Origin: Nitrospiraceae bacterium | GTDB lineage: Bacteria; Nitrospirota; Nitrospiria; Nitrospirales; Nitrospiraceae | Direction of reading: 5' to 3' | DNA: 64,000 bases | NCBI GenBank assembly: GCA_919902505.1 | Contig: CAKKRE010000037.1 | Location: forward strand, 1-64,000 | Shown: piece after piece, positions 23,260-41,694 of the stretch | Layout: each line of letters begins with the position of its first letter | How positions within the stretch are numbered: the first letter of the stretch is position 1 | Made by a program: the position numbers and the translations under genes | Notes under the pieces: model-generated | Databases searched by the model: none | What the model was told of the DNA's origin: nothing | The model's input: only the letters and a program-made list of their open reading frames with translations

Positions 23260-26058
23260 TCACGTCCCCCGGTCGGGTTGCAGCGAGAGTCGCGCGCCCA
23301 TTCGCCCGCGGACGAATTTCTGAAGTTCGTCTGCCAGGAGCAAGCCGATGGCCCCGAGCGCCAGCGGTCCGAAGATCCAGGCCGGGAGCGAGGCGGTGCC
23401 CAAGACCAGATGTCCGACCGGGCTGTAGGTCATGACGAGCAGGATGGTCAGTTCGACGGCGACACCCACCAGGATCAAGGGATTGCTGAACCAGCCGAGC
23501 CGGAACGCCGAGATGCGGTCTGTGCGGCAGGCAAAGACATTCGCGACCTGGGCCGCCACGATCCCGGCAAAGGTGACGGTCGTCGCTTCCTGATACAAAG
23601 GCGAGGTCCAGTCGAGCGCGGCCCCCCAGCTCCAGCCCTGGCTATACAAATAGAGAAAAAAACCTCCCATGGCAATGCCGGCTTCGATCAATCCCAAAAA
23701 AGCGTAGGCCCTCAGGAGCACATCCCAGCTGAGGAGTCGTTCGGTTCGGGGTCGCGGAGGGTCGTCCATCACCCCGCCCTCCGGCGGTTCTGCGGCCAGG
23801 GCCAGTGCCGGGACCATGTCTGTTCCCAAATCGACGGCCAGAATTTGCGGGATCGTGAGGGCGAGCGGCATCGATGAGAGTCCGAATCCCAGATACGGCA
23901 CGATCTCCGGGACGTTGCTGGCCAACACATACGTGACGAACTTGCGAATATTGGTATAGACGGCCCGTCCTTCTTCGATGGCGTGGACAATGGTGGCGAA
24001 ATTGTCGTCGAGCAGAATCATGGAGGCCGTCTCTTTGGCCACGTCCGTTCCGGCGATACCCATGGCGATGCCGATGTCGGCAGTTTTCAACGCCGGCGCG
24101 TCATTGACCCCGTCGCCCGTCACGGCGACCACTTCGCGCATTTCCTTGAGCGCCGAGACGATGCGCATTTTGTGCCGGGGCGCCATGCGGGCGAAGATCG
24201 GATCCGGTTCGCCGGGAGCGGTCGGGGTGAGCAGCCGGCGCAGTTGATCGTCGCTGAATGTGTCGATGTGTGCGCCTTCGATCACCGGCACGAAATGGCC
24301 CGGTGCCGTGGGTATCGTTTCCGGAGCCAGCCCGACCTTGCGTGCGACGGCCAATGCCGTCAGGGGATGGTCTCCCGTAATCATCATGACGCGGACCCCG
24401 GCCCGGCGGCATTTTTTGATCGCGTCCGGCACTTCACGGTGTGGCGGGTCCATCATGGCCACGAGTCCGAGAAACGTCAGTCCCTGCTCTACCGTGTCGG
24501 CCTCTAACTGCTCCACGCCGCGTTCGACTTCTCGCATGGCCACGGCCAGCACCCGGTACGCCTGCTGAGCGAAGGCCTGACTCTGGGCGAGCACTTTTTT
24601 GCGGCCGTCGACGGTGAGCTCGGCGGGTGTCGCCGATCCCTGCTGCCTGGTGCACAACGGCAAGACCGATTCCGGCGCGCCTTTGGTGAAGGCGAGCAGC
24701 CGACCCTCGCTCCAGTGCAGCGTCGTCATCCGTTTGCGATCCGCATCGAAGGGGATTTCGCCCATGCGCCGGAGCGGCGGGCGGTGGAGGAGTCCGTGGT
24801 CCGCGGCAAACTCCAGCAGCGCCGTCTCAGTGGGATCACCGGTGGTGCGGCTACGCCCGTCCGGGTGGCGCGTGCGCTTGGCGTTGTTGCAATGAACGAT
24901 GGCGTCGAACAGGGGACGCCATCGTTCCGATTCGGGCGCGGTGATGAGGCGATTCCTGGTGAACAAACAGCCTTCTCGCGATTCGACGACGAGGTCGTCC
25001 ACGTACAGCCTGTCGAGCCGCATCCGGTTTTCCGTCAGTGTCCCGGTCTTGTCGGTGCAGATCACGGTGGTGCACCCCAGCGTTTCGACGGATGCCAGGT
25101 GTTTGATGAGTGCCTTGCGCGCAGCCATGCGCTGACTGCCCATGGCGAGGGCCAGGGTGACGGTCGGCAGGAGCCCTTCGGGTACATTGGCGACGATGAT
25201 GCCGATGCCGAAGATCGTGCTCGCCCAGAAGCCTAATCCCATCCCGACGCCGATGGTGAAGAAGACCAGGCCCATCAGCAGTGAGAGCCCGGCGACGACA
25301 TGCGTCACCTTCACAATTTCTTGTTGGAGCGGGCTCAACCCGATTTGTACGGTTGTCGTCAGGTGCGCGATTTTGCCGAATTCGGTGTTGAGGCCGGTGG
25401 CAAAGACCACGCCCTGGCCATGGCCGGAGAGGACCGTGGTTCCGGCGAAGGCCAGATTCGCAATGTCGAGCGGATGGCCGTCGGTGATGGGATCGGCCGA
25501 CCGTCGTTGCGGTTTCGATTCGCCGGTGAGAGAGGAGTTATCGACGCGCATGCCGACGGCTGCGGTGAGTCTCGCATCGGCGGGAATCTGCTCACCTTCT
25601 TCCAGCACGAGCACATCGCCCGGTACCAGTTCGCTGCGGGCGATCTGTTGCTGCTGCCCGTCGCGAAGGACCCAGGCTTGGGCCGGCAGCATGCTGCGCA
25701 AGGCTTGGACCGCGCGTTCTGCCTTGTACTCTTGCAGGAAGGCGAAAATGGCATTGATGAGAATCACGCCGAGGATGGCCCACCCCAATGTCGCCATGCC
25801 TTCACCGGAGTGGAGGGCGTCGGCGAGGAACGCCAGTCCTGCCGCCACCCACAGGAGCAGTGCCAGGAAATGCGTGAACTGACGCGCAAAGCGGCTGATG
25901 AGCGGCATCCCGCGCAACGCCTGCAGACTATTCGGCCCGTACCGGAGGGTTCGTCGCCGGACGTCGTCCGACGAGAGGCCCTGCGGAGTGGTGGCGAGCG
26001 CGCGGTACACCTGGCTGGGAGCCAGGCGGCAGACTTCTAGCGCAGTCAGTTCAGGCAC
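23260..26058 (-). CDS. P-type cation ATPase, Na/K- or Ca-like (type II)
   Basis: 932 residues from GTG 26058. That start has GAGGA 5 bp upstream and overlaps the stop of the stress-protein gene; an ATG 36 bp earlier lies well inside that gene. Domains in order: cation-ATPase N domain, actuator with 'LTGES', M4 'NVPEGLLPTVTLALA', phosphorylation site '[13 protein letters not shown]', 'KGAPE' nucleotide site, 'TGDGVNDAPALK' hinge, and M6 'DLGTDMVPALALA'. The M4 and M6 sequences resemble Na,K-ATPase more than SERCA, so Na+ or mixed-cation export is the best guess. Translational coupling to the stress protein implies induction under stress. Confidence 0.9.
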   Translation of the reverse strand: MPELTALEVCRLAPSQVYRALATTPQGLSSDDVRRRTLRYGPNSLQALRGMPLISRFARQFTHFLALLLWVAAGLAFLADALHSGEGMATLGWAILGVILINAIFAFLQEYKAERAVQALRSMLPAQAWVLRDGQQQQIARSELVPGDVLVLEEGEQIPADARLTAAVGMRVDNSSLTGESKPQRRSADPITDGHPLDIANLAFAGTTVLSGHGQGVVFATGLNTEFGKIAHLTTTVQIGLSPLQQEIVKVTHVVAGLSLLMGLVFFTIGVGMGLGFWASTIFGIGIIVANVPEGLLPTVTLALAMGSQRMAARKALIKHLASVETLGCTTVICTDKTGTLTENRMRLDRLYVDDLVVESREGCLFTRNRLITAPESERWRPLFDAIVHCNNAKRTRHPDGRSRTTGDPTETALLEFAADHGLLHRPPLRRMGEIPFDADRKRMTTLHWSEGRLLAFTKGAPESVLPLCTRQQGSATPAELTVDGRKKVLAQSQAFAQQAYRVLAVAMREVERGVEQLEADTVEQGLTFLGLVAMMDPPHREVPDAIKKCRRAGVRVMMITGDHPLTALAVARKVGLAPETIPTAPGHFVPVIEGAHIDTFSDDQLRRLLTPTAPGEPDPIFARMAPRHKMRIVSALKEMREVVAVTGDGVNDAPALKTADIGIAMGIAGTDVAKETASMILLDDNFATIVHAIEEGRAVYTNIRKFVTYVLASNVPEIVPYLGFGLSSMPLALTIPQILAVDLGTDMVPALALAAEPPEGGVMDDPPRPRTERLLSWDVLLRAYAFLGLIEAGIAMGGFFLYLYSQGWSWGAALDWTSPLYQEATTVTFAGIVAAQVANVFACRTDRISAFRLGWFSNPLILVGVAVELTILLVMTYSPVGHLVLGTASLPAWIFGPLALGAIGLLLADELQKFVRGRMGARLSLQPDRGT

Positions 26059-26956
26059 GCCATCCTCGTACGATGAGCACCGAACAGGGGACATACTTCA
26101 GCAGCGTTTCCGAGACGCTGCCCAACTGAAGCCGTTCGGACCCCGTCAAGCCCCGTGAGCCGGCCACGAGCAGATCCACCTTGCCGGAGGCGGCCTGCTG
26201 GATGATCGTGTCGGTCACATGATCGACCTTCACCTGCGTCGTGACGGCGCAACCTTCGGCCAGGAACCGATCGCGTAAGTTCTCTACGACCTGTTCGGCG
26301 GCCTGACGTTTCGGGACCGAGATCTGCTCCACCTGGTCCTTCGACAGGTACTTGGCCGCCAGTTCCGTCATGGCCGGTTCGACGACCGACAACACCGTGA
26401 CGTGCGCGGACTCCGGAAGCAGGCGCTGGCACAGAAAGCGACAGGCGCCTTGGGAGTGTTTCGAGGCATCCGCCGCAAAGAGCACGTGAGAGAGGGCTGT
26501 AAGCGGCCGTTTTACCACCAACACCGGGCAGGCGGCCAAGGCGCTGACTTTACGGGACACACTGCCCAGGAGGTAATGTTCTGCATCGCTCAGGCCGCGC
26601 GAGCCGAGGACGAGCAGATCGGCTTTTTTCTGCTTGGCCAGCTTCGTGATGGTATCGGCCACGCGGCCATGGGCGAGGATCGTGTCGATGGCCGTGCGAG
26701 GCTTCGTGGTGGCCTGCTTCAACGCGATTTTCGCCAGACCTTCGAAGCGCCGCAGAATCTGGTCGCCGGCCTTCGTCATGGCGGCGATGGCCTGTTTCGA
26801 GACAGCAGCGTGTTTACGTGCGGCGGATTTCAACGATGCGCTGTCCACGACATGGACCAACGTGACGAAGTCGGGTGGGCGGCTGGCGACCGCTTCCAGC
26901 ATCTGCACACTCCACTCGGCGAACTCCGATCCATCCACCGCGATCATCATCTTCAT
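26051..26956 (-). CDS. Tandem universal stress protein (two UspA domains)
   Basis: 301 residues from ATG 26956. The longer frame crosses the promoter and is not used. Domain 1 starts 'MKMMIAVDGSEFAEWSVQML' and ends 'LLVLGSRGLSDAEHYLLGSVSRKVSALAACPVLVVK'. Domain 2 starts 'SHVLFAADASKHSQGA' and ends 'LLVAGSRGLTGSERLQLGSVSETLLKYVPCSVLIVR'. Both keep the GxxGxxxxxxGSxS ATP-binding loop. Proteins of this kind are induced on starvation or oxygen limitation. The stop overlaps the start of the ATPase gene. It is a paralogue of the 47255 gene. Confidence 0.9.
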   Translation of the reverse strand: MKMMIAVDGSEFAEWSVQMLEAVASRPPDFVTLVHVVDSASLKSAARKHAAVSKQAIAAMTKAGDQILRRFEGLAKIALKQATTKPRTAIDTILAHGRVADTITKLAKQKKADLLVLGSRGLSDAEHYLLGSVSRKVSALAACPVLVVKRPLTALSHVLFAADASKHSQGACRFLCQRLLPESAHVTVLSVVEPAMTELAAKYLSKDQVEQISVPKRQAAEQVVENLRDRFLAEGCAVTTQVKVDHVTDTIIQQAASGKVDLLVAGSRGLTGSERLQLGSVSETLLKYVPCSVLIVRGWRA

Positions 26957-26998
26957 GTGTGTTTCTCCCAGGTTGCAGTACCGCCCCGAGATAGAGTC

Positions 26999-27015
26999 TG
27001 CATCGGGTATGCCTG
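26999..27015 (-). promoter_or_regulatory. Weak sigma-54-like promoter for the stress-protein/ATPase operon
   Basis: The minus strand reads CAGGCATACCCGATGCA, with GG and GC 10 bp apart and the conserved GGCA and TGCA cores, but not a full consensus. A start near 26988 would give a leader of about 30 nt. Its plausibility rests on the stronger sites in front of sister genes. Confidence 0.35.
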
Positions 27016-27217
27016 AACGCGGTCTGATCACGAAGCGGTAACTGTGTGCGATGCCAGGCGGTTGGCAGGTTTGCCGGGTAGTCGTCGTAGGCAGTTGCGG
27101 CGTTTTGCAGCAGTGGGCGGGACGATATTGGGGTAATTGGCCTCAGTGAGAGGGGAGATCCGGATGGCGATGTTCGGAGGACATGCGCCTGTGCACGTTG
27201 GCTGATCGGTCGGCATT

Positions 27218-27234
27218 CAGGCATCACGATTGCG
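27218..27234 (+). promoter_or_regulatory. Sigma-54 promoter for the 27262-29646 gene run
   Basis: CAGGCATCACGATTGCG has GGCA at -24 and TTGC at -12 with exactly 10 bp between GG and GC. The expected start is near 27245, only 17 bp before the ATG at 27262. It lies back to back with the weaker minus-strand site at 26999. Confidence 0.55.
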
Positions 27235-29646: not shown

Positions 29647-30203
29647 CCGGTGCGCCGGTGTTGTGTCACGGGAGAGGACAGGGTCCCGATGATTGCGAGC
29701 ACCGAGAAGCACGCGCCCGCGTAGAATGTGAAGGCCGCGCCGAGTCGATCCCATAAGAATCCTGCGAGGAGGCTGGCGATGAGCATCGCGAGCCCGCAGG
29801 CCAGGTTGAAGCAGCCGTAGGCTGTCCCGCGCAGATCGGTCGGTGCCACGTCTGCGACCATGGTGGCCAGCAGGCCTTGTGTCATCCCCATGTGAATGCC
29901 CCACAGCGCCACGCCTGCCAGAATCACGCTCCAGTGATCGTTCAAGGCCAGTCCCTTCCTCCTGCCGAGATAGTCGCTCAAGGTCCCCGAAAAGACTTTG
30001 ACCACGAGGGCCAGGGACTCGGCCAGTCCTTCCACGATGCCGACCGCGATCGTGCCGGCGCCGAGTGTCGTGACCATGAACAGCGGCAGCAGGCTGTGAA
30101 TCATTTCCGACGAAATGTCCATCAAGAGGCTGACAAAACCCAGCACCCAAATGCCTGACGGCATCTGTCGGAGTGAGGTGTTTGGAGAGGTGCGTTGCAT
30201 CAA
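29643..30203 (-). pseudogene. MFS transporter with in-frame internal deletion
   Basis: 186 residues instead of about 400. Residues 17-80 are TM1-TM2 and motif A of a 12-helix MFS protein ('WVLGFVSLLMDISSEMIHSLLP', then 'SGTLSDYLGRRKGLAL'). The next residues jump directly to what is normally TM10-TM12 ('LAGVALWGIHMGMTQGLLATMVADVAPTDLRGTAYG', then 'LLAGFLWDRLG'). About 200 residues (TM3-TM9) are missing, yet the frame is intact. Such a half-sized product could not form the usual transport path alone. I call it a deletion derivative. A functional small protein is possible but unsupported. Confidence 0.75.
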
Positions 30204-30228
30204 AGCGTGCGAGGATGCTGACCATTAC

Positions 30229-30564
30229 TTACGTTGTGTGACGGGGGACGTACATGATGACGGCCATCCCGATCATGCAGATGACAGCACCGACCATGTC
30301 GAATCGATCTGGCCTGGTGCCGTCCGTGCCCCATCCCCATAACAACGAGAGCACGATGAACATGCCGCCGTAGGCTGCGTACACCCGCCCGAAATGGGCC
30401 GTTTGCAGCGTTGGAATAACTCCGTAGAGGATCAACAACATCGCTCCCGCCGCCGCATATCCGAACGGCTTTCCCTCACGGAGCCACAGCCAGACGAGAT
30501 AGCTGCCGCCGATTTCACACAATCCAGCGATGACGAAGAGACTGATCGACAGGGGGACCGACAT
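30229..30564 (-). CDS. YnfA/UPF0060 family small membrane protein
   Basis: 111 residues with four membrane helices, the standard size and layout of UPF0060. Signatures are '[24 protein letters not shown]' (E in TM1 as in SMR-type exporters), '[26 protein letters not shown]' and '[25 protein letters not shown]'. The family resembles small multidrug resistance proteins and may export cationic compounds. The deleted MFS gene follows after about 25 bp on the same strand. Confidence 0.92.
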
Positions 30565-30749
30565 CGCTGCTTCCTCACGATAAAGAATAGGCGTTTCAGG
30601 TATCGTGATTTCGGCAGCGACTATGGCGGATTATGGTTCAGTTGTCCAACTGTCGCCGCACGGTTCGGCAAGCATTGACCTGAACATGCCGAATCGGCGA
30701 TGCCTTCTCTCTTGTCGCCGGGTGAGCGACTGCTGTTCCGTCGGTTCGG

Positions 30750-30947
30750 CTACTGCCGCTGCCGTGGATGATGTTCCGGGCAGGGACGCGGCCTCTGGAG
30801 GTCGGACGGGAGGGCGGTGGTCTCATCCAAGCAGGCGCGGTCCAGTTGTGTCTGCGCAAGTACGGTCGCTCCGGTGAGATTGGAGCCGCGCAAGGCGAGG
30901 TGTCGCGATATGACGACAATCGGATCGCTGCCACGAACCTGCAGCAA
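30750..30947 (-). pseudogene. Remnant of a pentapeptide-repeat protein
   Basis: A 65-codon frame reading 'ALRGSNLTGATVLAQTQLDRACLDETTALPSDLQRPRPC'. Units of the A(D/N)LxG type are followed by the 'D..T.LP..L..P.PC' closing element seen at the ends of pentapeptide-repeat proteins. Only about two coils remain and there is no start with a ribosome site. The rest of 30565-30967 holds nothing I can identify. Confidence 0.45.
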
Positions 30948-30967
30948 TCGACTTCACGATGGCCTCA

Positions 30968-31180
30968 ATGTGCGACTCGAAAGATCGGATCACTCATCTG
31001 ATACCTCGGGGTGCGGACATCACCAAGCGCGATCACCAGGAAAACGAGGTGAATCAATGGAACGACGAATTGAGGCGACGAGTCGAAGGACATGGGTGGG
31101 AGCTTGTGGCATCTCAAATTGGGTTGCTGGTATTGGCGTCTGAACTCACGTTGGCCGAAGCCCGCGCCGCTGGCCCTTGA
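30968..31180 (+). CDS. Small hypothetical protein
   Basis: 70 residues, starting at ATG 30968 (an earlier in-frame ATG lies 9 bp upstream). It is charged and helical ('NEVNQWNDELRRRVEGHGWEL', 'GLLVLASELTLAEARAAGP') with no recognisable motif and no clear ribosome site. Base composition shifts towards AT here, approaching the HNH gene island. It is plausible as coding, but weakly supported. Confidence 0.35.
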   Translation: MCDSKDRITHLIPRGADITKRDHQENEVNQWNDELRRRVEGHGWELVASQIGLLVLASELTLAEARAAGP

Positions 31181-31330
31181 GCGCGGACTTGCACGGTTCT
31201 CTTGCTCAATAGTGTGTTAGGCCGGCTTATGCAAGAAAAAAGGCTTGACGTTCGGTGGTCTTTTCGGACATACATGCGGGCCGTTTACGCTCTTGAAAAG
31301 AGCAAAGTCAGAAATTATATCTGGGTTGCT

Positions 31331-32002
31331 ATGGATGCGAAAATAATCGTTGAAGAATTCCAGGACTATCTCGCGCCGAGATTAGACACATACGAGCAAT
31401 CGATCTACCTGTATATACTCAGACACGGTCGCTTGCAGGGAAAAGCTGAGATCACCATCGGATTCAAATCTGCACGTAAAAAGATGGCTCTCGGAATAGG
31501 GGAAAAGGGAAAGCCCATGTCGGAAGGCACGTGTTATGAGAAGCTCAGATCCCTCGAGTCAAAAGGTTGTCTTCGAATCATCGGCACCGAGAGAGAAGGT
31601 ACAAAAATCCAACTTTGCCTTCCCTCTGAGATCGAAGGATTGATTCCGTCCGAAGAAGTCGCCGCTGTGTTGAGCTTGGAGGAAATGGATTTCTTTGATA
31701 TCTCGGAGAATCGTGTGCTAATCCTCGAAAGGGAACGCAGGAAGTGTTTCTATTGCTTCCGAGCACTCGATCCATCGAATCACGTGATAGAGCATGTCAC
31801 GTCTCGCCCTGCCGGCAATAATAGCTATCGCAATGTTGTGGCCGCGTGCCTCGGTTGCAACAATAAAAAAGGTAACTCGTTGGTGGACGATTTTCTTCGC
31901 GGTTTATATCGAACGGGATACCTCAGCGAACGCGACTTCGAGTGTCGTCTTGAGGCGTTACGTCTTCTGAGGGATGGTGAACTCAAGCCAAAGATCTCGT
32001 GA
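31331..32002 (+). CDS. HNH endonuclease-domain protein with N-terminal winged helix
   Basis: 223 residues from ATG 31331; the frame is open to 31202 and the start is uncertain. The N-terminal part ('YEQSIYLYILRHGRLQGKAEITIGFKSARKKMAL', 'SEGTCYEKLRSLESKGCLRI') reads like a replication-initiator-type winged helix. The C-terminal part, 'CFYCFRALDPSNHVIEHVTSRPAGNNSYRNVVAACLGCNNKKG', is an HNH nuclease with two CxxC zinc pairs. It could be a restriction or mobile-element protein. The gene is visibly richer in A+T than its surroundings, uses different codons and has no related neighbour, all suggesting horizontal acquisition. Confidence 0.78.
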   Translation: MDAKIIVEEFQDYLAPRLDTYEQSIYLYILRHGRLQGKAEITIGFKSARKKMALGIGEKGKPMSEGTCYEKLRSLESKGCLRIIGTEREGTKIQLCLPSEIEGLIPSEEVAAVLSLEEMDFFDISENRVLILERERRKCFYCFRALDPSNHVIEHVTSRPAGNNSYRNVVAACLGCNNKKGNSLVDDFLRGLYRTGYLSERDFECRLEALRLLRDGELKPKIS

Positions 32003-32212
32003 TGTAATTGACGAACATGGTAGGAGTGAGGCACGGTATGGACGTGCTTATGTTGAAATGAACCGACATTCTGATGGCTCTTCTTCGGTGAGGGGCTGGC
32101 AACGGGTCATCTCTTCTCATGGGAATTCCACGCATGCTCACTCCTAGGAGGGAGGAGTGTGACGGTGACGCCAGTCCCAAACGGGCGTTCCTCACCAAAT
32201 CAGATACTCGAA

Positions 32213-33547
32213 TCATGTGCATTGATCCACTGATTTCGCCAAGTCTTGAAGCGATTGGCTGATCCTCACGTCAAACGGCAAACAGTCGCCTAGCCCTCGT
32301 AACGCATCCGGGAGTTGCTCCAACGATCTCCTCGCATGCTGGCGGAGCTCTTCGAGGGATGGAGAGGCGGTGAGGCGCCGGCCTCCCTGCATCACCTGAC
32401 CCAGTAGCGGCGCGCCTTCCGGGCAGTCGCCCTCGACCGTGATGATATCACCGTTCAGGCGTCCGTCGGTTCCGATCCGGCGGTAGACCTGTTTTCGACC
32501 GGGCCAGGTGGCCTTGCCTTCGGAACGTTTACGGCAGGGTCTGCCGGCATATTCCTGGAGTTTGTACGCACAGTCCAGGTAGGGGGCATCGGCCGACGTG
32601 GTCATGGCCGTGCCGATCGCAAAACTGTCGATCGGTGCCTGTCCTGTCACCAGCGCCTGGATGCGTTCCTCGTCAAGATTTCCGCTGGCGAGGATTTGGG
32701 TGGCCGTGAGGCCTCCGCGATCGAGGATGTGCCGAACCTTGCGCGCGTGTTCGGCGAGGTCACCGCTATCGAGCCGGACACCGTGGATCGAGATGCCCCG
32801 TGCTTTCAAGCGACCCGCCAGGGAGACCACCTTCTCCGCCGCCGCTTCCGTGTCATAGGTGTCGATGAGGAACACGACGTTGCGCGGTTGCGCCTCTGCG
32901 ATGTGGGTGAACGCCTCTGTCTCATCGAGATGGGCCTGGACAAACGAATGGGCCATCGTCCCGTAGATCGGGATGCCGAAGCGGGCGCCGGCTGATACGT
33001 TCGACGTGCCCGCGAGTCCGGCGAGGTATGCGGCGCGGGCGGCGAGGAGGCCCGCCTCTGCCCCATGCGCACGGCGGAGGCCGAAATCGATCAGGGGTTT
33101 GTCGCCGGCAACCAAGACCGACCGGCAGGCTTTGGAGGCCACCATCGTTTGGAAGTTCAGGAGATTCATGACCCTGGTTTCCACGAGTTGCGCCTGCGGT
33201 AGGGGGGCGGTAATGCGGAGGATCGGCTCGTGTGGAAAAAAGAGGCTCCCCTCCGGCATCGCGTGAACCTCGCCGGTAAAGCGCATCGCGCGGAGCGCGT
33301 CGAGCGACGCCGGGCTGAATCCACCGGTCTGGTCGAGCCAGGCGATGTCGGGATCTGAGAAATGAAACTCCTCCAGATAGCTCAAGACCTGCTCCAGTCC
33401 CGCGGCCATGAAGAAGTTGCGTTGCGGCGGCAGTTTCCGGACAAAGAATTCAAAGACGGCGATGTCCGTCATTCTCTGGGCGAGGTAGGCTTGCGCCATC
33501 GTGAGTTCGTAGAGGTCCGTGAGCAGCGCGTCCGAGGTGATGTTCAT
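32213..33547 (-). CDS. pncB: Nicotinate phosphoribosyltransferase
   Basis: 444 residues from ATG 33547, which overlaps the pncA stop by 4 bp. Motifs: 'LLTDLYELTMAQAYL', 'EFFVRKLPPQRNFFMAAGLEQVL', 'DFGLRRAHG', 'GTSNVSAGARFGIPIYGTMAHSFV', 'GVRLDSGDLAEHARKVRHILD' (PRPP site region), 'ILASGNLDEERI' and 'FAIGTAMTTSADAPYLDCAYKL'. The enzyme makes nicotinate mononucleotide from nicotinate, using PRPP and ATP. With the nicotinamidase directly upstream it forms the complete salvage step from nicotinamide to NaMN. It is the last gene of the six-gene run starting at 37712. Confidence 0.95.
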   Translation of the reverse strand: MNITSDALLTDLYELTMAQAYLAQRMTDIAVFEFFVRKLPPQRNFFMAAGLEQVLSYLEEFHFSDPDIAWLDQTGGFSPASLDALRAMRFTGEVHAMPEGSLFFPHEPILRITAPLPQAQLVETRVMNLLNFQTMVASKACRSVLVAGDKPLIDFGLRRAHGAEAGLLAARAAYLAGLAGTSNVSAGARFGIPIYGTMAHSFVQAHLDETEAFTHIAEAQPRNVVFLIDTYDTEAAAEKVVSLAGRLKARGISIHGVRLDSGDLAEHARKVRHILDRGGLTATQILASGNLDEERIQALVTGQAPIDSFAIGTAMTTSADAPYLDCAYKLQEYAGRPCRKRSEGKATWPGRKQVYRRIGTDGRLNGDIITVEGDCPEGAPLLGQVMQGGRRLTASPSLEELRQHARRSLEQLPDALRGLGDCLPFDVRISQSLQDLAKSVDQCT

Positions 33548-34125
33548 GCGGCCAATCGCTCCAAGCAAAGGGGAATGGCGCCGGCCAGCACCATCGCTTC
33601 TTCGGCGTGCCGGCCGTCGTCGGGAAGCACATTGACCGGCCGGATGGCGTCGACCAACAGGCAGACCTCATACCCGAGTGTCCGGGCGTCCCGCACGGTT
33701 TCGAGCACACAATAGTCCGTGGCCAGTCCTCCGATGAACAACCGGCCGATGCGGGCTGCCCGGAGACGATCGTGCAACGGAGTGCCCTGGAAGCCGGAGT
33801 AGGCCTCGTGTGTGGGATCGGTGCCTTTCGAGATCACAATGGCCGATGGGGGAAGCCGGAGGTCGTCAGGAAATTGTGCCCCTGGCCTGTGTGCGACGCA
33901 GTGTGGCGGCCAAGGGCCCCCCTGTGCGTGGAAGGAGCAGTGGTCGGGCGGGTGCCAGTCCCGCGTGGCAAATACCGGCAGGCCCTGTTCGGCAAACAGG
34001 GCCAGATACCGCTGCAACGGAGGAATCACTTCTTGGCCGCCGGGCACCGCCAGCGCGCCATCCGCGACAAAATCGTTCTGAACGTCCACAATGAGGAGCG
34101 CATCGCCTGGTTGAAGAGGTTTCAT
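33544..34125 (-). CDS. pncA: Nicotinamidase
   Basis: 193 residues. Isochorismatase-fold hydrolase with the complete nicotinamidase set: catalytic Asp in 'LIVDVQNDFV', Lys in 'VISKGTDPTHEAYSGF' and Cys in 'GLATDYCVLETVRDA'. The metal-binding 'TRDWHPPDHCSF' (D-x-H...H) and 'WPPHCV' are present. It converts nicotinamide to nicotinate and ammonia. The stop overlaps pncB (ATGA). The cytochrome c gene ends 37 bp upstream. Confidence 0.94.
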   Translation of the reverse strand: MKPLQPGDALLIVDVQNDFVADGALAVPGGQEVIPPLQRYLALFAEQGLPVFATRDWHPPDHCSFHAQGGPWPPHCVAHRPGAQFPDDLRLPPSAIVISKGTDPTHEAYSGFQGTPLHDRLRAARIGRLFIGGLATDYCVLETVRDARTLGYEVCLLVDAIRPVNVLPDDGRHAEEAMVLAGAIPLCLERLAA

Positions 34126-34161
34126 ACGGAGTTCCTTCGCGGAGCTCGTCCGCCCGGCATC

Positions 34162-34542
34162 CTATCGGCTCTGTTGCACGAGCAGGCGGATGTAGGCCAG
34201 CACGTCCTGCATTTCCGTTTCGGTCAGTTGCCCCTGCCAGGAATGCATCGGGCTGAAGACGATGCCGTGCTCGATCGCTCTGAGCAACTCCTCGTCGGAC
34301 TTGAGGAAGGACTTGAATCGGTGGAAATTGGCCGGCGGGACCGTCAATGCGGCGGCATCGGGGCCGTCGCCCCATCCGCCACGGCCGTGACAGGCGAGGC
34401 AATGACGCTCGTAGACCGCCTTCCCTCTGGTGACGTCCGGCGGAAAGTCCTGTGCCGTCGCCGAGCCACAGACGGCCGAGAGGGTCACGGCAAGCGAGAC
34501 GACGAAGGAATACCTGGTGCCGGTGGTCATGACGATCTGCAT
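34162..34542 (-). CDS. Periplasmic c-type cytochrome (mono-haem)
   Basis: 126 residues from ATG 34542 (AAGGAGA upstream); ATG 34530 is an alternative. It has a signal peptide (SFVVSLAVTLSAVCGSATAQ), then 'GKAVYERHCLACHGRGGWGDGPDA' with one CxxCH, and an axial-Met candidate in 'GIVFSPMHSW'. 'LTETEMQDVLAYIRLL' is the last helix of a class I cytochrome c. It is a small soluble electron carrier. Its place inside an operon for ribosome hibernation, proteolysis and NAD salvage is unexpected; the reductase or oxidase partner is unknown. Confidence 0.88.
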   Translation of the reverse strand: MQIVMTTGTRYSFVVSLAVTLSAVCGSATAQDFPPDVTRGKAVYERHCLACHGRGGWGDGPDAAALTVPPANFHRFKSFLKSDEELLRAIEHGIVFSPMHSWQGQLTETEMQDVLAYIRLLVQQSR

Positions 34543-34559
34543 GCGTCTCTGTGTCTCCT

Positions 34560-34724
34560 TCAGCTTTTCTTGGTCGTGTGCGCGATGAACGACGAAAAGT
34601 GTTGCTGCAGTTTGGTGCTGCCGCAGGCGGGACATTGTACCTCACCTTTCTCATGTTGCTTCAGTGTCACGATGATCAGCGATTCTTTTCCGCAGTCCAG
34701 ACAGGTGTAGTCATACATGGGCAT
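34560..34724 (-). CDS. FmdB-type zinc-ribbon protein
   Basis: 54 residues from ATG 34724, with GAGG upstream; the longer 125-codon frame is mostly antisense to the Lon-like gene. 'MPMYDYTCLDCGKESLIIVT' and 'VQCPACGSTKLQQHFSSF' give two CxxCG pairs, as in the FmdB/putative regulatory zinc-ribbon family. Function of the family is unproven. It sits 17 bp after the protease gene and 18 bp before the cytochrome gene, so it is co-transcribed. Confidence 0.85.
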   Translation of the reverse strand: MPMYDYTCLDCGKESLIIVTLKQHEKGEVQCPACGSTKLQQHFSSFIAHTTKKS

Positions 34725-34740
34725 AGGGACCTCGTGTTGT

Positions 34741-37155
34741 TTACCCTGTGACCTTTTCCGGCTCTTCTTCGCCTTCTCCCCAATTTGCGACGATCTGCGC
34801 CATCTCCTCCAGGCGCGCGGCGGTTCGACCGTAAATGCTCTCGGGCGGGAAGGTTCCTTCCGGTCCGCGTTCCCCGGCGGGGACGCCGATGAGCAGCTCA
34901 AGCGCCTGTTCGACGTGGTCCACGCCATAGACGGCAAACGTTCCCTCTTCCACGGCCACGACGACTTCCCGGTTCAGCGCCAGGTGTTTCGTGTTTCGAG
35001 CGGGGATGATCACCCCTTGCGTGCCTGTCAGGCCACGCCGCTTGCACGACTCAAAGAACCCTTCGATTTTCTCGTTGACGCCGCCGATGGGCTGGATTTC
35101 ACCGAGTTGGTTCACCGAGCCGGTGACGGCCAGCGATTGCCGGATGGGAAGGTCGGCGAGGCTTGAGAGGACGGCCGTGAGTTCGGCCACGGCGGCACTG
35201 TCTCCCTCGATTTCGGAGTAGGTCTGTTCGAAGGTGAGGGTGGCGCTGAGCGCGAACGGCTGCATCCCCGCGAATTTGCCCGCCAGGAATCCGGCCAGCG
35301 TCATGACCCCCTTGCTGTGGATGTTTCCAGCGAGCTCGACCTCGCGTTGAATATCGATCACGCCTTTGGTGCCGACATAGGTGCGGGCGGTGATCCTGGT
35401 GGGACGACCGAAGGCATAGTCGCCCAGCTCATAGACGGACAGCCCGTTGACCTGACCGACGACCGCGCCCTGCAGATCCACCATCAAGGTCCCTTCGCGG
35501 ATTTCATCCTGGATCCATTGCTCAGGCAGGTCGGCACGGTGTCGCTGGTGCGCCAGGGCCGATTCGACATCCGCGCGCGTCACGAAGGAGTGCCCGTCTT
35601 TCCTGGCCCAATACCCGGCTTCGCGAATGAGGTCGCTGACCAGGCTGAATCGCAAGGACAGCCGGTCGTGCCGGTCGGCATAGCGAAACCCCTGGCGGAT
35701 GACTTCCGCCACGGCGTCGGCGCCGAAATGCGGCAGTCCTTCCTCCTTGCATAATTTGGCGACGAAGCGCGCATATTGGCGCTCCTGCCGTTCATCGTGC
35801 GGGACCTCCACATCGAAATCGGCCTTCACCTTGAAGAGTTTGGAGAAGTCCTCTTCGTAGGCCTGCAGCAGATGGTAGATGCCCGCTGTGCCGACCAGGA
35901 TGACTTTGACCGAGACGGGAATCGGTTCGGGACGCAGGCCCGCAGTGGCGAAGCCGTAGAACTCGGCCGGATCCTCGATGGTGACGGCGCCGGTCTTGAT
36001 GACGCGCTTCAAGGCTTCCCAGGAAAACGGCTGGCGGAGGAGATCCAGCGCCTGCAGAATCAGGTAGCCGCCGTTGGCCTGCAACATGGACCCCGCCCGG
36101 ATTTCGGTGAAATCGGTATACATCACTCCGAGGTGCGCCCGGCGCTCGATTTTTCCGATGAGGTTGCTGTAGGTCGGGTGGGGCTCATCCACAACCGGTG
36201 CTCCGGCGGTGGCTTCCCGGGCCACGATGAGGTTGACGGCGAACCGGGTCATGTCCGAGCGACGGGTTTGCTCCAGTCCGGGGATCGGCAGCACCGGACC
36301 GCTGTGAGGTAGGAAGTCTTTGTATTTGTGAATGATGTCGTGATGGACCCGCTGCAGGTACGTCGTCACGGGTCGTAGGTCTTGATAGGCTTGCTGAAGT
36401 ACGTCGTAGGCCCCCTTCATGACGTTGGCGACGATCTGGTGGTCGAGATGATGCAGGGCCTGCTCGGCTTCCCGTTCGAGGGTGTGCATCCGGACATGAA
36501 ACTCACGCAGGTCGCTCTCAAGTGATTGTCGTCGGTCGGTGAGTTCCTGCTGAACCTGTTCAGATAGTGCTTCCATTTCCTTTTCCGTCATCGGGCGGTC
36601 GTCTTTCAGCGGCACCAGCCCGAAGCCGACCGGCGTTTCTTCGAACCCGAATCCGCGTTGGTGACAGAGCGCGGTGAGGTCGTGAAACAGGGCCTTCTTT
36701 TTTCCTTCCGTCTCCTCGATGATCTTCGCCTTGGCATCGAGGTACTTCTTGCCTTCGAAGGCCGCGGGAATGTCCCGGCGCAGGCCATCGATGAAGGTGC
36801 TCATCTCGCGTTTAAACGACGCGCCTTGCCCCGCCGGAAACGAAAGGCAGGTCGGGCGCGACGCGTCCTGAAAGTTGTGGACGTAACACCAGTCGGATGG
36901 AGCCGGTGCCATGTGGGCCAGCCGCTTCACCATTTGTCTGACGAGTGTGCCCTTGCCCGTCCCGACTGGCCCGGAGACGAAAATGTTGAAGCCGGGGCTC
37001 TTCATTTGGAGGCCGAAGTCCAAGGCCTCGACCGCCCGCTCTTGCCCGATCGTGTCATCGAGCGGTTCGACTTCGCTCGTATCATCGAATCCCAGGCGAC
37101 CGGGGTCCACCTGCGGAGCCAGCAGGCTGGCGGGAAGTTTGTATTTATCCGACAT
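34741..37155 (-). CDS. Lon-like ATP-dependent protease (AAA_32/Lon-C, LonB-like)
   Basis: 804 residues from ATG 37155 (AGGAG upstream; a GTG immediately before is possible). There is a Walker A 'GPVGTGKGT' near residue 65 in the N-terminal AAA part, a long coiled-coil region (about 170-260) and a second AAA-like segment. A C-terminal Lon protease domain follows with the Ser-Lys dyad in 'EGDSAAVAEL' (Ser653) and 'GGVNEKIEGFF' (Lys696), 43 residues apart as in Lon. It resembles the cytosolic 'ATP-dependent protease' family distinct from classical LonA. It lies 12 bp after the HPF-like gene. It should degrade damaged or regulatory proteins under stress; substrates are unknown. Confidence 0.9.
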   Translation of the reverse strand: MSDKYKLPASLLAPQVDPGRLGFDDTSEVEPLDDTIGQERAVEALDFGLQMKSPGFNIFVSGPVGTGKGTLVRQMVKRLAHMAPAPSDWCYVHNFQDASRPTCLSFPAGQGASFKREMSTFIDGLRRDIPAAFEGKKYLDAKAKIIEETEGKKKALFHDLTALCHQRGFGFEETPVGFGLVPLKDDRPMTEKEMEALSEQVQQELTDRRQSLESDLREFHVRMHTLEREAEQALHHLDHQIVANVMKGAYDVLQQAYQDLRPVTTYLQRVHHDIIHKYKDFLPHSGPVLPIPGLEQTRRSDMTRFAVNLIVAREATAGAPVVDEPHPTYSNLIGKIERRAHLGVMYTDFTEIRAGSMLQANGGYLILQALDLLRQPFSWEALKRVIKTGAVTIEDPAEFYGFATAGLRPEPIPVSVKVILVGTAGIYHLLQAYEEDFSKLFKVKADFDVEVPHDERQERQYARFVAKLCKEEGLPHFGADAVAEVIRQGFRYADRHDRLSLRFSLVSDLIREAGYWARKDGHSFVTRADVESALAHQRHRADLPEQWIQDEIREGTLMVDLQGAVVGQVNGLSVYELGDYAFGRPTRITARTYVGTKGVIDIQREVELAGNIHSKGVMTLAGFLAGKFAGMQPFALSATLTFEQTYSEIEGDSAAVAELTAVLSSLADLPIRQSLAVTGSVNQLGEIQPIGGVNEKIEGFFESCKRRGLTGTQGVIIPARNTKHLALNREVVVAVEEGTFAVYGVDHVEQALELLIGVPAGERGPEGTFPPESIYGRTAARLEEMAQIVANWGEGEEEPEKVTG

Positions 37156-37166
37156 CACCCGGGCTC

Positions 37167-37712
37167 CTACAGTTCCAACGCGTGGGGTGGTTGAACGATG
37201 GTGGCGTGTAGGCCCTTCTCGCCCGGTTCGCTCTCGAAGATGACCTCCTGTCCGTCCTCCATGTCGTTGAACGGGATGCCCTTCACGGCATTCTTATGGA
37301 AATACACTTCGCCGCCGCCGTCCTTGAGGATGAAGCCATAGCCGAGGTGAGGAAATACTTTGCTCACCACGCCGCGGAGTTGAGGGAGCGGTTCGATACG
37401 CACGATTTTGTCGGCCCGTTTCTCGCGATATTTCCGCAGTTCGATCGCCACGGCATCGAAGGCGGCCCGGATCGCTTCCTCGAATGTTTTGTCCTCCTTG
37501 CGGGAGGTGATGGTGTGACGGGTCGGCACCGTGACCAGCACAAGCGCTTCTGCCACGTTGTCCAGTTTTTTATGATGGCGATTCTTCGTCAAGGTGACGC
37601 GTCCATGAATGATGTCGTCGTGGCCACGCTGCAAGGTGGCCATCCGCTCTTCGATCTCGGTTTTCCAGCGCGGGGTCATAGCGATGTTGCGGCTCTCAAC
37701 TTCCATGTTCAT
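37167..37712 (-). CDS. HPF/RaiA-type ribosome-hibernation domain fused to a cold-shock domain
   Basis: 181 residues. Residues about 1-110 resemble the S30AE/HPF fold: 'MNMEVESRNIAMTPRWKTEI', 'RHTITSRKEDKTFEEAIRAAFDAVAIELRKYREKR'. Residues about 115-175 form a CspA-type OB fold: 'GVVSKVFPHLGYGFILKDGGGEVYFHKNAVKG', with RNA-binding 'GYGFI' and 'VYFHKNA' motifs, then 'GQEVIFESEPGEKGLHATIV'. Such fusions probably bind ribosomes and RNA during dormancy. It heads the six-gene operon and is preceded by a sigma-54 promoter. Confidence 0.88.
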   Translation of the reverse strand: MNMEVESRNIAMTPRWKTEIEERMATLQRGHDDIIHGRVTLTKNRHHKKLDNVAEALVLVTVPTRHTITSRKEDKTFEEAIRAAFDAVAIELRKYREKRADKIVRIEPLPQLRGVVSKVFPHLGYGFILKDGGGEVYFHKNAVKGIPFNDMEDGQEVIFESEPGEKGLHATIVQPPHALEL

Positions 37713-37760
37713 GCGTCCTCCTCTCGGCTCAGATGGAAACTGGGTTCAACCCCTGTCCTC

Positions 37761-37777
37761 AGCAAAGCACATGCCTT
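37761..37777 (-). promoter_or_regulatory. Sigma-54 promoter for the HPF-Lon-pncAB operon
   Basis: The minus strand reads AAGGCATGTGCTTTGCT: GGCA at -24, TTTGCT at -12, 10 bp between GG and GC. A start near 37751 gives a leader of about 40 nt before ATG 37712. hpf-like genes are known to be associated with the rpoN system in other bacteria, which supports the call. Confidence 0.6.
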
Positions 37778-37920
37778 GCCGCAGGTGGGAACGAGGGGCA
37801 GGGATGGAGCTGAACCGGCTGAAAGTGGGGCATTTGCGCGACTTCAGCAAGCGGGATGATGGTGGCCTTTCGGGGCACTGGCGCATAATTCCTCACTGTC
37901 TCCGGAGGGGCTGAAGCTCA

Positions 37921-39081
37921 ATGCGCCAGTTGTTGGTTCCATTGCTGGCTGAAGCGGGCATATTTTCGGGAACATGTCTTGCGTCGGACAGCGGTATGCC
38001 GGTGTTGAAGAAATCTGCCCTGGAGACCTACCTCAAGGTTCGGTTCGGGCCGAGCGCGGAATTGCTCGCCTATGGACCGATCGGCAAGGAGACGAGCGGC
38101 GCGCGGTATAAGCAATACGGCTATGGCGCGCCTGTCCGGTTGACCTTCCGCCAGGGGGGCAAGACCCGCCGGGTGGTGTTGGGCACGATGAGTCCCGGTC
38201 CATTCGGCCATGAACATCCGGCCGACCGGGCTCAGGCGATGTTGTGGGACTACGACTGCTACGGCCGCCTGCCGGGACATATCGATGCGCTGGATGTGGG
38301 GGCCTTCACCGCGCGTGGAGAGTTGATGTCCGTGGCGGCGGCCAAGGAATTCTTTTTACTCACCGAATGGTCGGAGGGAGCGACCTATCACAAAGATCTC
38401 GAACGCATGGCAGGGGCGACCAAGCCGACTGCGCTCGACCGGAAGCGGACCGGAGCGTTGGCCGGATATCTGGCCGACATTCACCGGGTGAAACAGACCG
38501 ATCCGCAACTCTATCGGCGGCGGTTGCGGGAATTGCTCGGCCATGGCGAATGTATCATGGGCCTCACCGATAGTTACCCCGATCGGTTTGCCTTCATCAC
38601 GGAAGACCTTCTGCCGCGAATCGAGGTGGCCTGCAATGTGTGGCGATGGCGACTGCGCAGCCGGCATGCGCGCCTGTCGCAGGTGCATGGGGATTTCCAT
38701 CCCTGGAATGTGCTGTTTCGCCACGGGACGGATTTTTCCGTACTGGACCGGTCACGCGGGGAGTGGGGTGAGCCGGCGGACGACGTGACGTCGATGTCGA
38801 TCAACTATCTGTTTTTCTCGCTGTGCCGCCGTGGAACGTTGAAGGGCGCGTTGGAAGTGGCGTTCCATTCATTCTGGGAGACCTACCTGACCAGGAGCCG
38901 CGATCACGAGGTGTTGGAGGCGACGGCGCCGTTTTTCGCGTTTCGCGGGTTGGTGCTGGCGAGTCCGCTCTGGTATCCGAAACTCACCGTGACCGTGCGG
39001 CGGAAAATCTTCCGGTTCATCGAGAATGTTCTGGCGACGCCGCGCTTCGACCCGGCGGATGTGAATCGCTATTGCGAATAA
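37921..39081 (+). CDS. Aminoglycoside phosphotransferase-family kinase-like protein
   Basis: 386 residues from ATG 37921 (GGAGGGG 10 bp upstream); ATG 37996 is an alternative. The catalytic loop 'QVHGDFHPWNVLF' (HGDxHxxN) and 'VLDRSRGEWGEPADDVTSM' (the aspartate of the DFG-like motif) mark the APH/choline kinase fold. The N-terminal lobe contains 'GPSAELLAYGPIGKE' and 'VVLGTMS'. It phosphorylates a small molecule, probably a sugar or alcohol. The next gene, a CysC-like kinase, starts 8 bp after its stop, and a sugar-acting GH13 gene follows. Divergent from the HPF operon. Confidence 0.8.
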   Translation: MRQLLVPLLAEAGIFSGTCLASDSGMPVLKKSALETYLKVRFGPSAELLAYGPIGKETSGARYKQYGYGAPVRLTFRQGGKTRRVVLGTMSPGPFGHEHPADRAQAMLWDYDCYGRLPGHIDALDVGAFTARGELMSVAAAKEFFLLTEWSEGATYHKDLERMAGATKPTALDRKRTGALAGYLADIHRVKQTDPQLYRRRLRELLGHGECIMGLTDSYPDRFAFITEDLLPRIEVACNVWRWRLRSRHARLSQVHGDFHPWNVLFRHGTDFSVLDRSRGEWGEPADDVTSMSINYLFFSLCRRGTLKGALEVAFHSFWETYLTRSRDHEVLEATAPFFAFRGLVLASPLWYPKLTVTVRRKIFRFIENVLATPRFDPADVNRYCE

Positions 39082-39089
39082 GTGATGCG

Positions 39090-39617
39090 ATGACTCACGC
39101 CCCCTTCGCCATCTGGCTCACCGGTCTTCCCGCCTCAGGGAAAAGCTCGATTGTCGCGCGGTTGTTACCCAGGCTCGAATCGTGGGGATCGCCCGTGGAG
39201 GTCCTGGAGTCCGATGCCGTCAGGCGTATGTTGACTCCGGAGGCCAGCTATTCCAACGAAGAACGCGACCTGTTCTATCGCGCCCTGGCGTTCATGGGAT
39301 CACGACTGTATGCGCATGGGGTGAGTGTGATCTTCGACGCGACGGCAAGCCGGCGGGACTATCGTGAATTTGCGCGCAGCCTGATTCCAAGCCTGTTGGA
39401 AGTCTCCATCGAGTGTCCGCTGGAGGTCTGCATGCAACGCGACAAGAAGGGCACGTACAAGCGAGGGCTGGAAGGCGGGTCGTCCACCGTGCCCGGGTTG
39501 CAGACACCCTACGAAGCACCGATCTCGCGGGCTCTGGCTATCGATACGACGGTCGTCTCTCCGGACGCGGCAGCCGAACGGATTTTCGAATTGATCCGAT
39601 CCCCTCTTCGGTCGTGA
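39090..39617 (+). CDS. CysC-like P-loop kinase (adenylylsulfate-kinase family)
   Basis: 175 residues from ATG 39090. Walker A is 'IWLTGLPASGKSS', then 'LESDAVRRMLTPEASYSNEERDLFYRALAFMG' and 'VIFDATASRRDYREFARSLIP'. 'KGTYKRGLEG' replaces the usual KGLYKKA of APS kinases. The fold is that of CysC, but no sulfate-assimilation gene is nearby. Linked with an APH-type kinase, it may phosphorylate another substrate or modify proteins. About 160 bp separate it from the GH13 gene. Confidence 0.82.
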   Translation: MTHAPFAIWLTGLPASGKSSIVARLLPRLESWGSPVEVLESDAVRRMLTPEASYSNEERDLFYRALAFMGSRLYAHGVSVIFDATASRRDYREFARSLIPSLLEVSIECPLEVCMQRDKKGTYKRGLEGGSSTVPGLQTPYEAPISRALAIDTTVVSPDAAAERIFELIRSPLRS

Positions 39618-39783
39618 GGTGTGTAGCCTGTCTCCCCGCGCTTCAGGCATGCAGTCTTCTATAATTTCTCATCGCAATCGGCTATCAACCGTCTGCCGTC
39701 AGCTCGTGACCTGCCTCTTGCTGAGTTGAGCGGCCTCCGATAGGATGAGGCTGTTCCAGCGAGTGCTTACCGTGAGGGCACCC

Positions 39784-41694
39784 ATGCCCGCGTCACTCAG
39801 CCACATACATCCCGATACCCCGATGGGGGCTAATCTCATTGCCGACGGCGCGACGTTCCGTTGCTGGGCTCCGCATGCCAAGTCCGTCCATGTGGTCGGC
39901 GATTTCAACCATCAGGTACGTAACGAAGCGAGTGTGCTGACGCGGGACGCGCAGGGGCATTGGCGTGGGTTCTTCCCGGGGGTGAAAGATCGCCAGCGCT
40001 ATATGTTCTATGTGGTCGGCGAGGGAAGTGAGGGGCTCAAGCGGGATCCCTATGCCCGTGAATTGGAGTCGCCCTTCCCCAGCCAATGTATCATTCGCCA
40101 TCCTGATTTTCCCTGGCACGAGTGCGGCTATGTCACGCCGTGTTTCCATGAATTCGTGATCTATCAGCTCCATGTGGGGACCTTCTTCACCCCGAATCTT
40201 CCGCAGAAGGGCGGCACCTTCCTCGATGTGGCTCGCAAGCTGCCCTACCTCGCCGACCTTGGTGTGACGGCGCTGCAACTGATGCCCATTCAGGAGTTTC
40301 AGACCAGCTTCAGCCTGGGCTACAACGGCACCGACTATTTTTCTCCAGAAATGGATTTCGCCGTGCCGGATGCCGATCTGGCTCCTTATGTGGCGGTGGT
40401 GAACCGGCTGCTCGAAGAAAAAGGATTGCGCCCGTACCAGGTGAAGCAGCTCAGGGGGGAAATGAATCAGCTCAAGGCGCTGATCGATCTCGCCCATGTC
40501 TATGGCCTGGCGGTGCTGCTCGATGTGGTCTACAACCATGCGGGCGGAGACTTCGGGGACCAGAGCCTGTATTTCTTCGATCGCCAGAATCCGGCCGGCG
40601 GTCAGCGCCACTCGCTGTACTTCGCCGATGTCGGCCACGCCGGCGGCCTTGTGTTCGACTTTGCCAAGCCGGAGGTGCGCGACTTCCTGATTCAGAACGC
40701 CAAATTCTTCCTCACGGAATACCGGGTCGATGGATTCCGGTACGACCAGGTGAGCGTGATCGATCACGACGGGGCGCCGGAGGGCTGGCGTTTTTGTCAG
40801 GACCTGACCTCGACGGTGCATGCGCAGCGGCTGGAGACGTTGCACCATGCGGAATATTGGGATGTGAATCCCTTCATCGTCGCCCCCTTGCCTGTGGGGG
40901 CCGGGTTCGACACCACGTTGACCGATGGTCTTCGGATTGTGATCCGCGATGTCATCGGCAATGCGAGCGCGCCAGACGGGCGCCCGCTCAATATGATGGG
41001 GTTGGCGAGAAGCTTGTGGCCGGAAGGGTTCAACGAGTTCTGGCGCTTTGTGCAGGGGCCCGAGAACCACGACATCGTCTACCGGGGGCGGGAGCAGCGC
41101 ATCGCCCGGCTTGGCGATCCGGACCATCCCCGATCCTGGTTTGCGCGCAGCCGGGCGCGGGTCGCGACCGGCCTCAGCCTCACGGCCCCCGGGATTCCCA
41201 TGCTGTTCATGGGACAGGAATTTCTGGAGGACAAGCAGTGGGCGGACGACTTCGTGACGCACCGCGAGCTGCTTCTCCATTGGGCCGGTCTCGAACAGGG
41301 CGACCGGCAGATGATCGACCATCTGCGGTTCACGCGGGAACTGTTGCACTTGCGCCGAAGAATGCCGGCGCTTCGTGGCCAAGGGTTTCGAGCAGCGCAT
41401 GTGCACGATCAGAACCGGGTCCTGACATTTCATCGCTGGGTGGAAGGCGAAGGGCACGACCTGCTCGTGGTGGTGCACCTGGCCGATTTTACCCGCGTCG
41501 GGTATCGTCTCGGGTTTCCCGATGGTGGTGACTGGCTGGAAATCTTCAACAGCGATGCCTATGAAAACTGGATCAATGCCGGTGTGGCCGGCAACAGCGG
41601 GCGCGTGACCGCCGGACTGCAGCCCCTGCACGGCTTCGCCTATTCGGCAGCGGTGGTGCTCCCCGCCAATAGTATGCTGATATTTGCGCGTTAG
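39784..41694 (+). CDS. GH13 alpha-amylase-family enzyme with N-terminal CBM48
   Basis: 636 residues from ATG 39784. The N-terminal CBM48-like domain is 'GATFRCWAPHAKSVHVVGDFN'. The GH13 barrel has 'LGVTALQLMPIQEF', region I 'DVVYNHAGG', region II 'VDGFRYDQVS' (nucleophile Asp), 'HHAEYWD' near the acid position and region IV 'GPENHDIVY'. The C-terminal beta domain includes 'VLTFHRWVEG'. The layout resembles glycogen branching enzyme or maltooligosyltrehalose trehalohydrolase, but I cannot choose. It should act on alpha-glucans in the cytoplasm; no glycogen-synthesis genes are adjacent. Confidence 0.85.
   Translation: MPASLSHIHPDTPMGANLIADGATFRCWAPHAKSVHVVGDFNHQVRNEASVLTRDAQGHWRGFFPGVKDRQRYMFYVVGEGSEGLKRDPYARELESPFPSQCIIRHPDFPWHECGYVTPCFHEFVIYQLHVGTFFTPNLPQKGGTFLDVARKLPYLADLGVTALQLMPIQEFQTSFSLGYNGTDYFSPEMDFAVPDADLAPYVAVVNRLLEEKGLRPYQVKQLRGEMNQLKALIDLAHVYGLAVLLDVVYNHAGGDFGDQSLYFFDRQNPAGGQRHSLYFADVGHAGGLVFDFAKPEVRDFLIQNAKFFLTEYRVDGFRYDQVSVIDHDGAPEGWRFCQDLTSTVHAQRLETLHHAEYWDVNPFIVAPLPVGAGFDTTLTDGLRIVIRDVIGNASAPDGRPLNMMGLARSLWPEGFNEFWRFVQGPENHDIVYRGREQRIARLGDPDHPRSWFARSRARVATGLSLTAPGIPMLFMGQEFLEDKQWADDFVTHRELLLHWAGLEQGDRQMIDHLRFTRELLHLRRRMPALRGQGFRAAHVHDQNRVLTFHRWVEGEGHDLLVVVHLADFTRVGYRLGFPDGGDWLEIFNSDAYENWINAGVAGNSGRVTAGLQPLHGFAYSAAVVLPANSMLIFAR

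Follow-up and report, generated by a model that had tools for sequence, protein, structure and literature searches.

A putative sigma-54-type stress operon joining ribosome hibernation, proteolysis, a cytochrome, and NAD salvage in Nitrospiraceae

Gene content of the locus

The window analyzed here is a 64-kb stretch of a Nitrospira genome of 4.24 Mb. Between positions 32213 and 37712 it contains six minus-strand ORFs that encode a ribosome hibernation factor (HPF), a Lon-like protease, an FmdB-family zinc ribbon, a cytochrome c, nicotinamidase, and nicotinate phosphoribosyltransferase (Table 1). The intergenic gaps calculated from the coordinates are, from HPF to pncB, 8, 16, 17, 36, and −4 bp. 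An earlier sequence-only reading had proposed these six genes, a spacing of −4 to 37 bp, and the domain identities of all six products. These claims are borne out by the ORF positions, the computed gaps, and Pfam/NCBIfam-type profile matches, respectively.

Table 1. Coordinates of genes and regulatory features in the window.
Feature	Position	Strand	Basis
Enhancer-like site A, TGGCGCATTGAGCTTCA	37912..37928	−	17-bp dyad TGNNG-N7-CNNCA
Enhancer-like site B, TGAGGAATTATGCGCCA, its start 33 bp from the start of site A	37879..37895	−	17-bp dyad TGNNG-N7-CNNCA
Sigma-54-type −24/−12 promoter, GGCATGTGCTTTGC (GG-N10-GC), 63 bp upstream of the HPF start codon	37762..37775	−	15-genome alignment
HPFcold-type hibernation factor, S30AE + cold-shock domain, 181 aa	37167..37712	−	Pfam PF02482 + PF00313
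Lon-like ATP-dependent protease (AAA_32 / LonB-LonC type), 805 aa	34741..37158	−	Pfam AAA_32, LonB_AAA-LID, LonC_helical, Lon_C
FmdB-family zinc ribbon, CxxC...CxxC, 54 aa	34560..34724	−	TIGR02605, 50.2 bits (cut-off 31.3)
Mono-haem cytochrome c, CLACH motif (one CXXCH)	34162..34542	−	Pfam Cytochrome_CBB3/Cytochrom_C
Nicotinamidase PncA, 193 aa	33544..34125	−	Isochorismatase domain; nicotinamidase 1ilw/1im5, E 2e-51
Nicotinate phosphoribosyltransferase PncB, 444 aa, 4-bp overlap with pncA	32213..33547	−	PRK09243.1-3, 633.7 bits (cut-off 503)
HNH endonuclease-type ORF, in the place of the missing part of the seventh gene	31202..32002	+	PF01844 above cut-off
Remnant of seventh operon gene (pentapeptide-repeat), last 50 codons	30753..30902	−	tblastn match to the L113 homologue (residues 442-491, 64% identity)
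Second enhancer, paired dyads 33 bp apart, bidirectional	27096..27145		Window scan
Tandem universal stress protein (Usp), first gene of its transcript	26051..27031	−	Pfam Usp
P-type cation ATPase after Usp	23260..26094	−	Pfam E1-E2_ATPase, Cation_ATPase_C

Both HPF domains, the N-terminal Ribosomal_S30AE and the C-terminal cold-shock domain (CSD), score above the Pfam gathering score within one chain. Residues 3–171 align to residues 10–176 of HPFcold from Coxiella burnetii (CBU_0020, PDB 9T0Z; PMC13392368) with an E-value of 2.7e-11, i.e., over the full length. The two proteins share the domain order and a similar length, although their identity is low across a long divergence. On sequence grounds, the first protein of the operon is a true relative of the HPFcold hibernation factors. 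In HPFcold, the cold-shock domain covers the anti-Shine-Dalgarno and S30AE blocks the decoding site, as described in the same source, whose HPFcold tree already takes in Nitrospirota. The HPF of the window is likewise predicted to bind the 30S A site and the anti-Shine-Dalgarno.

The catalytic signatures of the Lon-like protease are intact, with a Walker A motif GPVGTGKG and a Ser/Lys dyad formed by Ser654 (GDSA) and Lys697 (GGVNEK). Its closest solved chain is Meiothermus LonC (4fwd), with which it shares the AAA_32 region and the Lon_C protease domain, but from which it differs in having Walker A; its score against the LonB equivalog model, 149 bits, is far under the cut-off of 517 bits. A literature search for a tie of YcbZ/LonH to ribosomes returned nothing usable. 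The zinc ribbon is 94–100% identical in most genus members. The N-terminus of the cytochrome is hydrophobic and, judged by eye, resembles an export signal. The nicotinamidase assignment follows from the match given in Table 1, the PncA score on PRK11609 falling short of that model's cut-off.

All six genes have dN/dS values below 0.4 and hence evolve under purifying selection. The ratios are mostly below 0.11 for HPF (0.03–0.11), Lon, and the zinc ribbon, and 0.13–0.36 for the cytochrome, pncA, and pncB. The slower evolution of the first three genes may mean that the second half of the operon is more loosely coupled.

No terminator-like site beyond chance expectation was detected between the genes, and the scan gave fewer intrinsic terminators than shuffled sequence did. 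A sigma-70 promoter scan yielded nothing exceeding chance, no promoter of pncAB's own was seen, and an Rfam search of positions 30000–40000 returned zero RNA elements. The locus combines a common strand, short gaps, a conserved order, and freedom from internal terminators, as a single operon should, and we infer that the six genes are co-transcribed from one upstream promoter. The sequence-only reading, for which a scrambled order in relatives or internal terminators would have counted against the operon, holds in both respects.

In relatives, the unit extends further downstream. An intact pentapeptide-repeat gene (assigned by Pfam; its product looks exported) follows approximately 25 bp past pncB, or past the cytochrome gene where pncAB are absent, and it is intact in the four closest relatives, whose Lon proteins are 97% identical to that of the window. 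The HNH endonuclease-type ORF found in its place has a weak IscB-like HNH match in NCBIfam. Since relatives have the gene intact and the window retains no more than its last 50 codons, we read the window operon as a truncated version of a seven-gene unit. Both this remnant downstream and the sigma-54-type promoter/enhancer upstream had been overlooked earlier.

Conservation of the gene order

Of the 78 Nitrospiraceae genomes sampled, 17, spanning six genera, have the complete six-gene order, and sub-blocks are present in many others. Among same-contig cases in these genomes, HPF and Lon are immediate neighbors in 39 of 40, the zinc ribbon and cytochrome genes in 43 of 48, cytochrome and pncA in 23 of 24, and pncA and pncB in all 33. 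By their distribution, HPF-Lon, zinc ribbon-cytochrome, and pncA-pncB act as modules that can be joined. These patterns are most simply explained if the ancestor of the family already had the six-gene order, which was later eroded. Since it recurs family-wide and each gene is under purifying selection, the cluster cannot be ascribed to chance.

Erosion has affected different parts of the operon. Lon is gone from it in G052, G061, and G075; the absence is clean in G052, and in G075 a 41-residue remnant persists between HPF and the zinc ribbon (L114:5546-5668). The operons of G048 and G072 lack the pncAB pair. Neither HPF nor Lon is left in G042 and G057, where the cytochrome is retained, and the cytochrome is absent in G012 and G021 (L126, L127), where HPF, Lon, and pnc are kept. 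Thus the gene set is not obligate, as Lon, pncAB, and even HPF have each been lost in some relatives. In several g6 genomes, a zinc ribbon-cytochrome(-pncAB)-pentapeptide cassette lies a few kilobases off, with a tandem Usp gene ahead of it (L116-L118, L146-L149).

Two further local changes were seen. In G018 (L145), Lon is split into two frames, via mutation or assembly error. The pncA gene of G038 (L133:8243-8821) is only 63% identical to that of the window, while its neighbor genes are 90–100% identical, an apparent in-place swap for a distant version.

Sampled loci of other phyla contained no HPF-Lon linkage. Outside Nitrospiraceae, only the deep-branching Nitrospirota L066, L068, and L071 have Usp, HPF-CSD, and Lon in a row, and in the first two of these pncB immediately follows Lon. 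This suggests that the association either predates the family or arose twice.

Sigma-54-type promoter and paired upstream dyads

When the regions upstream of HPF were aligned for 15 genus members, an exact GG-N10-GC element stood out amid otherwise diverged DNA. The pattern GGCA[CT]N5TTGC[TG] occurs within 300 nt upstream of HPF in all 19 loci of a family-spanning set and on the opposite strand in none of the 19, with a chance expectation of about 2% per 300 nt. The genome has rpoN, as an ORF in L001 carries at its C-terminus the RpoN box ARRTVAKYR (read by eye). Another HPF gene of the same genome lies between rpoN and a rapZ-like gene (L001, G000:C1). This cluster also ties an HPF to sigma-54 biology, but its product is a separate protein, of the long type by a weak C-terminal match, whereas the HPF of the window is a second copy, with a cold-shock domain. 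The conserved promoter element and the presence of rpoN suggest activation of the operon by sigma-54.

Farther upstream, two sites, TGGYGCATTGRGCTTCA and TGAGGAAAAATGCGCCA-like, both fit the dyad TGNNG-N7-CNNCA. Their 33-bp spacing is kept in nearly all close relatives and in other genera, with a single 32-bp case (L113). Across loci, site B precedes the −24 element by 92–163 bp, activator sites being expected at about 80–200 bp.

These motifs were found by inspecting the sequences and then tested on overlapping sets; therefore window-wide and reversed-pattern controls carry more weight than raw motif counts. Searching the family for site B together with the promoter yielded 35 matches in 33 genomes, versus one for the reversed pattern used as a control. 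Judged by their coordinates, 26 of these matches immediately precede HPF or, in G057, the zinc ribbon gene. In the genome of the window (G000), covered outside this contig by pattern searches, the exact HPF-type site pair was found once, at HPF, and the search gave no more operons with this enhancer: every other match is a lone site that has one mismatch and lacks a suitable promoter. Loci outside Nitrospiraceae gave zero perfect matches to the dyad pair with promoter. A motif search of the window and the rest of its contig found no gene for an enhancer-binding protein.

A window scan with a generic dyad pair at 33 bp plus promoter gave only two hits, HPF and 27096-27145, versus none in six shuffles; at other spacings from 25 to 44 bp there was none, except for one at 31 and two at 34 bp. 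A sigma-54-like element flanks the second enhancer on each side (27000-27013, minus; 27220-27233, plus). Its minus-strand side leads to the Usp and cation ATPase genes and its plus-strand side to CBS, CBS, and YkuD genes. The upstream region on the Usp side is conserved in alignment, and in the relatives analyzed the dyad-pair architecture recurs at the same two places, HPF and Usp. Moreover, in another genus the zinc ribbon-cytochrome-pnc cassette is headed by a tandem Usp gene with its own promoter and dyad pair (one mismatch). The operon most likely belongs to a small sigma-54 stress/dormancy regulon.

Two other observations concern sigma-54-like promoters. A conserved, membrane-like ORF of approximately 31 residues (MTRTQWLLIGAIGLGFAIGIYLLFFCPTDCR-like) lies between the sigma-54-like promoter and tandem Usp in L116, L117, L118, L149, L126, and L127. 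Good sigma-54-like sites that lack paired dyads precede a second Usp gene (47200-47215, plus) and a CBS-domain gene (12738-12723, minus).

In L119 and L120, where HPF and Lon have been lost, the enhancer and promoter are retained ahead of the zinc ribbon gene. No other indirect evidence speaks as strongly for transcription of the downstream genes from the HPF promoter. The same loci bear on an alternative explanation, in which HPF-Lon is the functional unit and an unrelated zinc ribbon-cytochrome-pnc cassette has settled behind a convenient promoter. Such a chance-built neighborhood would agree with the unequal constraint on the operon halves and with g6 genomes that keep HPF-Lon apart from zinc ribbon-cytochrome(-pnc) (L116, L117, L049, L051). 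However, the separated cassette is headed by a tandem Usp gene with an enhancer and promoter of the same kind, and it retains the HPF enhancer where HPF and Lon are gone. We consider this explanation unlikely.

Proposed function and known counterparts

We propose that the locus is one Nitrospiraceae stress/dormancy operon with a sigma-54 promoter and an activator acting from two 17-bp dyads 33 bp apart, and we regard this as probable; the dormancy role is our inference from gene content and regulatory context. Failure of energy or oxygen would be sensed by a putative enhancer-binding protein at the paired dyads, and sigma-54 polymerase would then produce one transcript with all operon genes. 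HPFcold would park 70S ribosomes and cover the anti-Shine-Dalgarno end of 16S rRNA, while the Lon-like protease and the small zinc ribbon would be made from the same transcript. By analogy, the exported cytochrome c may sustain a trickle of respiration, and the nicotinamidase and nicotinate phosphoribosyltransferase may recycle nicotinamide to NAD in the low-energy state. In most genus members, the pentapeptide-repeat protein, truncated in the window, would also be produced. The individual protein roles and the inducing signal are assigned tentatively. Oxygen or energy limitation is the leading candidate signal, because in N. marina Usp-flanked clusters, including electron-transport proteins, increase at low oxygen (PMC8115632).

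The same N. marina clusters would also suit an operon that primarily serves oxygen limitation or respiration, its cytochrome feeding a high-affinity oxidase and HPF and the rest being accessory, and the cytochrome is indeed retained in G042 and G057, which are devoid of HPF and Lon. Yet the cluster contains no oxidase gene, and in G012 and G021 it is the cytochrome that is missing. This explanation is possible, if rather less than probable.

The sequence-only reading had seen a re-awakening program, with ribosomes parked to begin with and the NAD pool restored once the cell resuscitates. The stress program itself gains from the conserved gene train, the single conserved promoter at its head, the relation to 9T0Z, and the stress-type neighbors with the same enhancer. 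The re-awakening step is not supported. It shares with the proposed operon the presence of the genes in one train, but a single upstream promoter would yield all products simultaneously, a separate promoter for pncAB was not seen, and the pair is missing from the operon in two genomes. Since they would be made together with the ribosome-parking factor, if co-transcribed, pncAB are at least as likely to act on stress entry or during stress, and we find the delayed-rebuilding version very unlikely.

The proposed stress operon has a partial counterpart in Mycobacterium tuberculosis. There, the NarL-type response regulator DosR acts at scattered promoters, and its regulon includes a P-type cation ATPase as well as CBS proteins. 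Usp proteins are reported members as well (PMC9283954), and the regulon pairs an HPF-like translation inhibitor, Rv0079, with pncB2, Rv0573c (PMC11203133), so NAD salvage beside translation arrest has a precedent. With this precedent and its wide occurrence within Nitrospiraceae, the gene combination is less unusual than the sequence-only reading held. In Nitrospira, an HPF-type inhibitor, PncB, and Usp may likewise come under one regulator, the operon and the Usp promoter sharing their enhancer architecture. The two systems differ in that the Nitrospira genes form a compact operon, headed by a sigma-54-type promoter and enhancer, and no homology to DosR is claimed. We give about an even chance to a broader proposal, a Nitrospiraceae dormancy regulon in which sigma-54 and one dedicated, putative enhancer-binding protein reading 33-bp-spaced TGNNG-N7-CNNCA pairs would co-induce HPFcold, the protease, the exported cytochrome, NAD salvage, and the exported pentapeptide-repeat protein along with the Usp and cation-ATPase/CBS transcripts. 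Such a regulon would be the counterpart, in nitrite and comammox oxidizers, of that of DosR, having evolved independently of it.

The component families and the HPFcold class are already known. The accessible part of the HPFcold report (PMC13392368) describes neither this operon context nor a sigma-54-type promoter. A limited literature search found no description of the operon as a unit, of its truncated seventh gene, or of a sigma-54 promoter with a fixed-spacing enhancer common to stress genes; given this limited coverage, their novelty is provisional.

Nitrospira are dominant nitrite oxidizers, including comammox organisms, and their survival of starvation and anoxia is poorly understood. 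Now that a promoter, an enhancer code, and a gene set are defined, this question can be tested. The operon also gives a physiological context to the recently named HPFcold class and, if the proposal is true, ribosome hibernation would be linked via sigma-54 to redox and NAD upkeep within a single operon.
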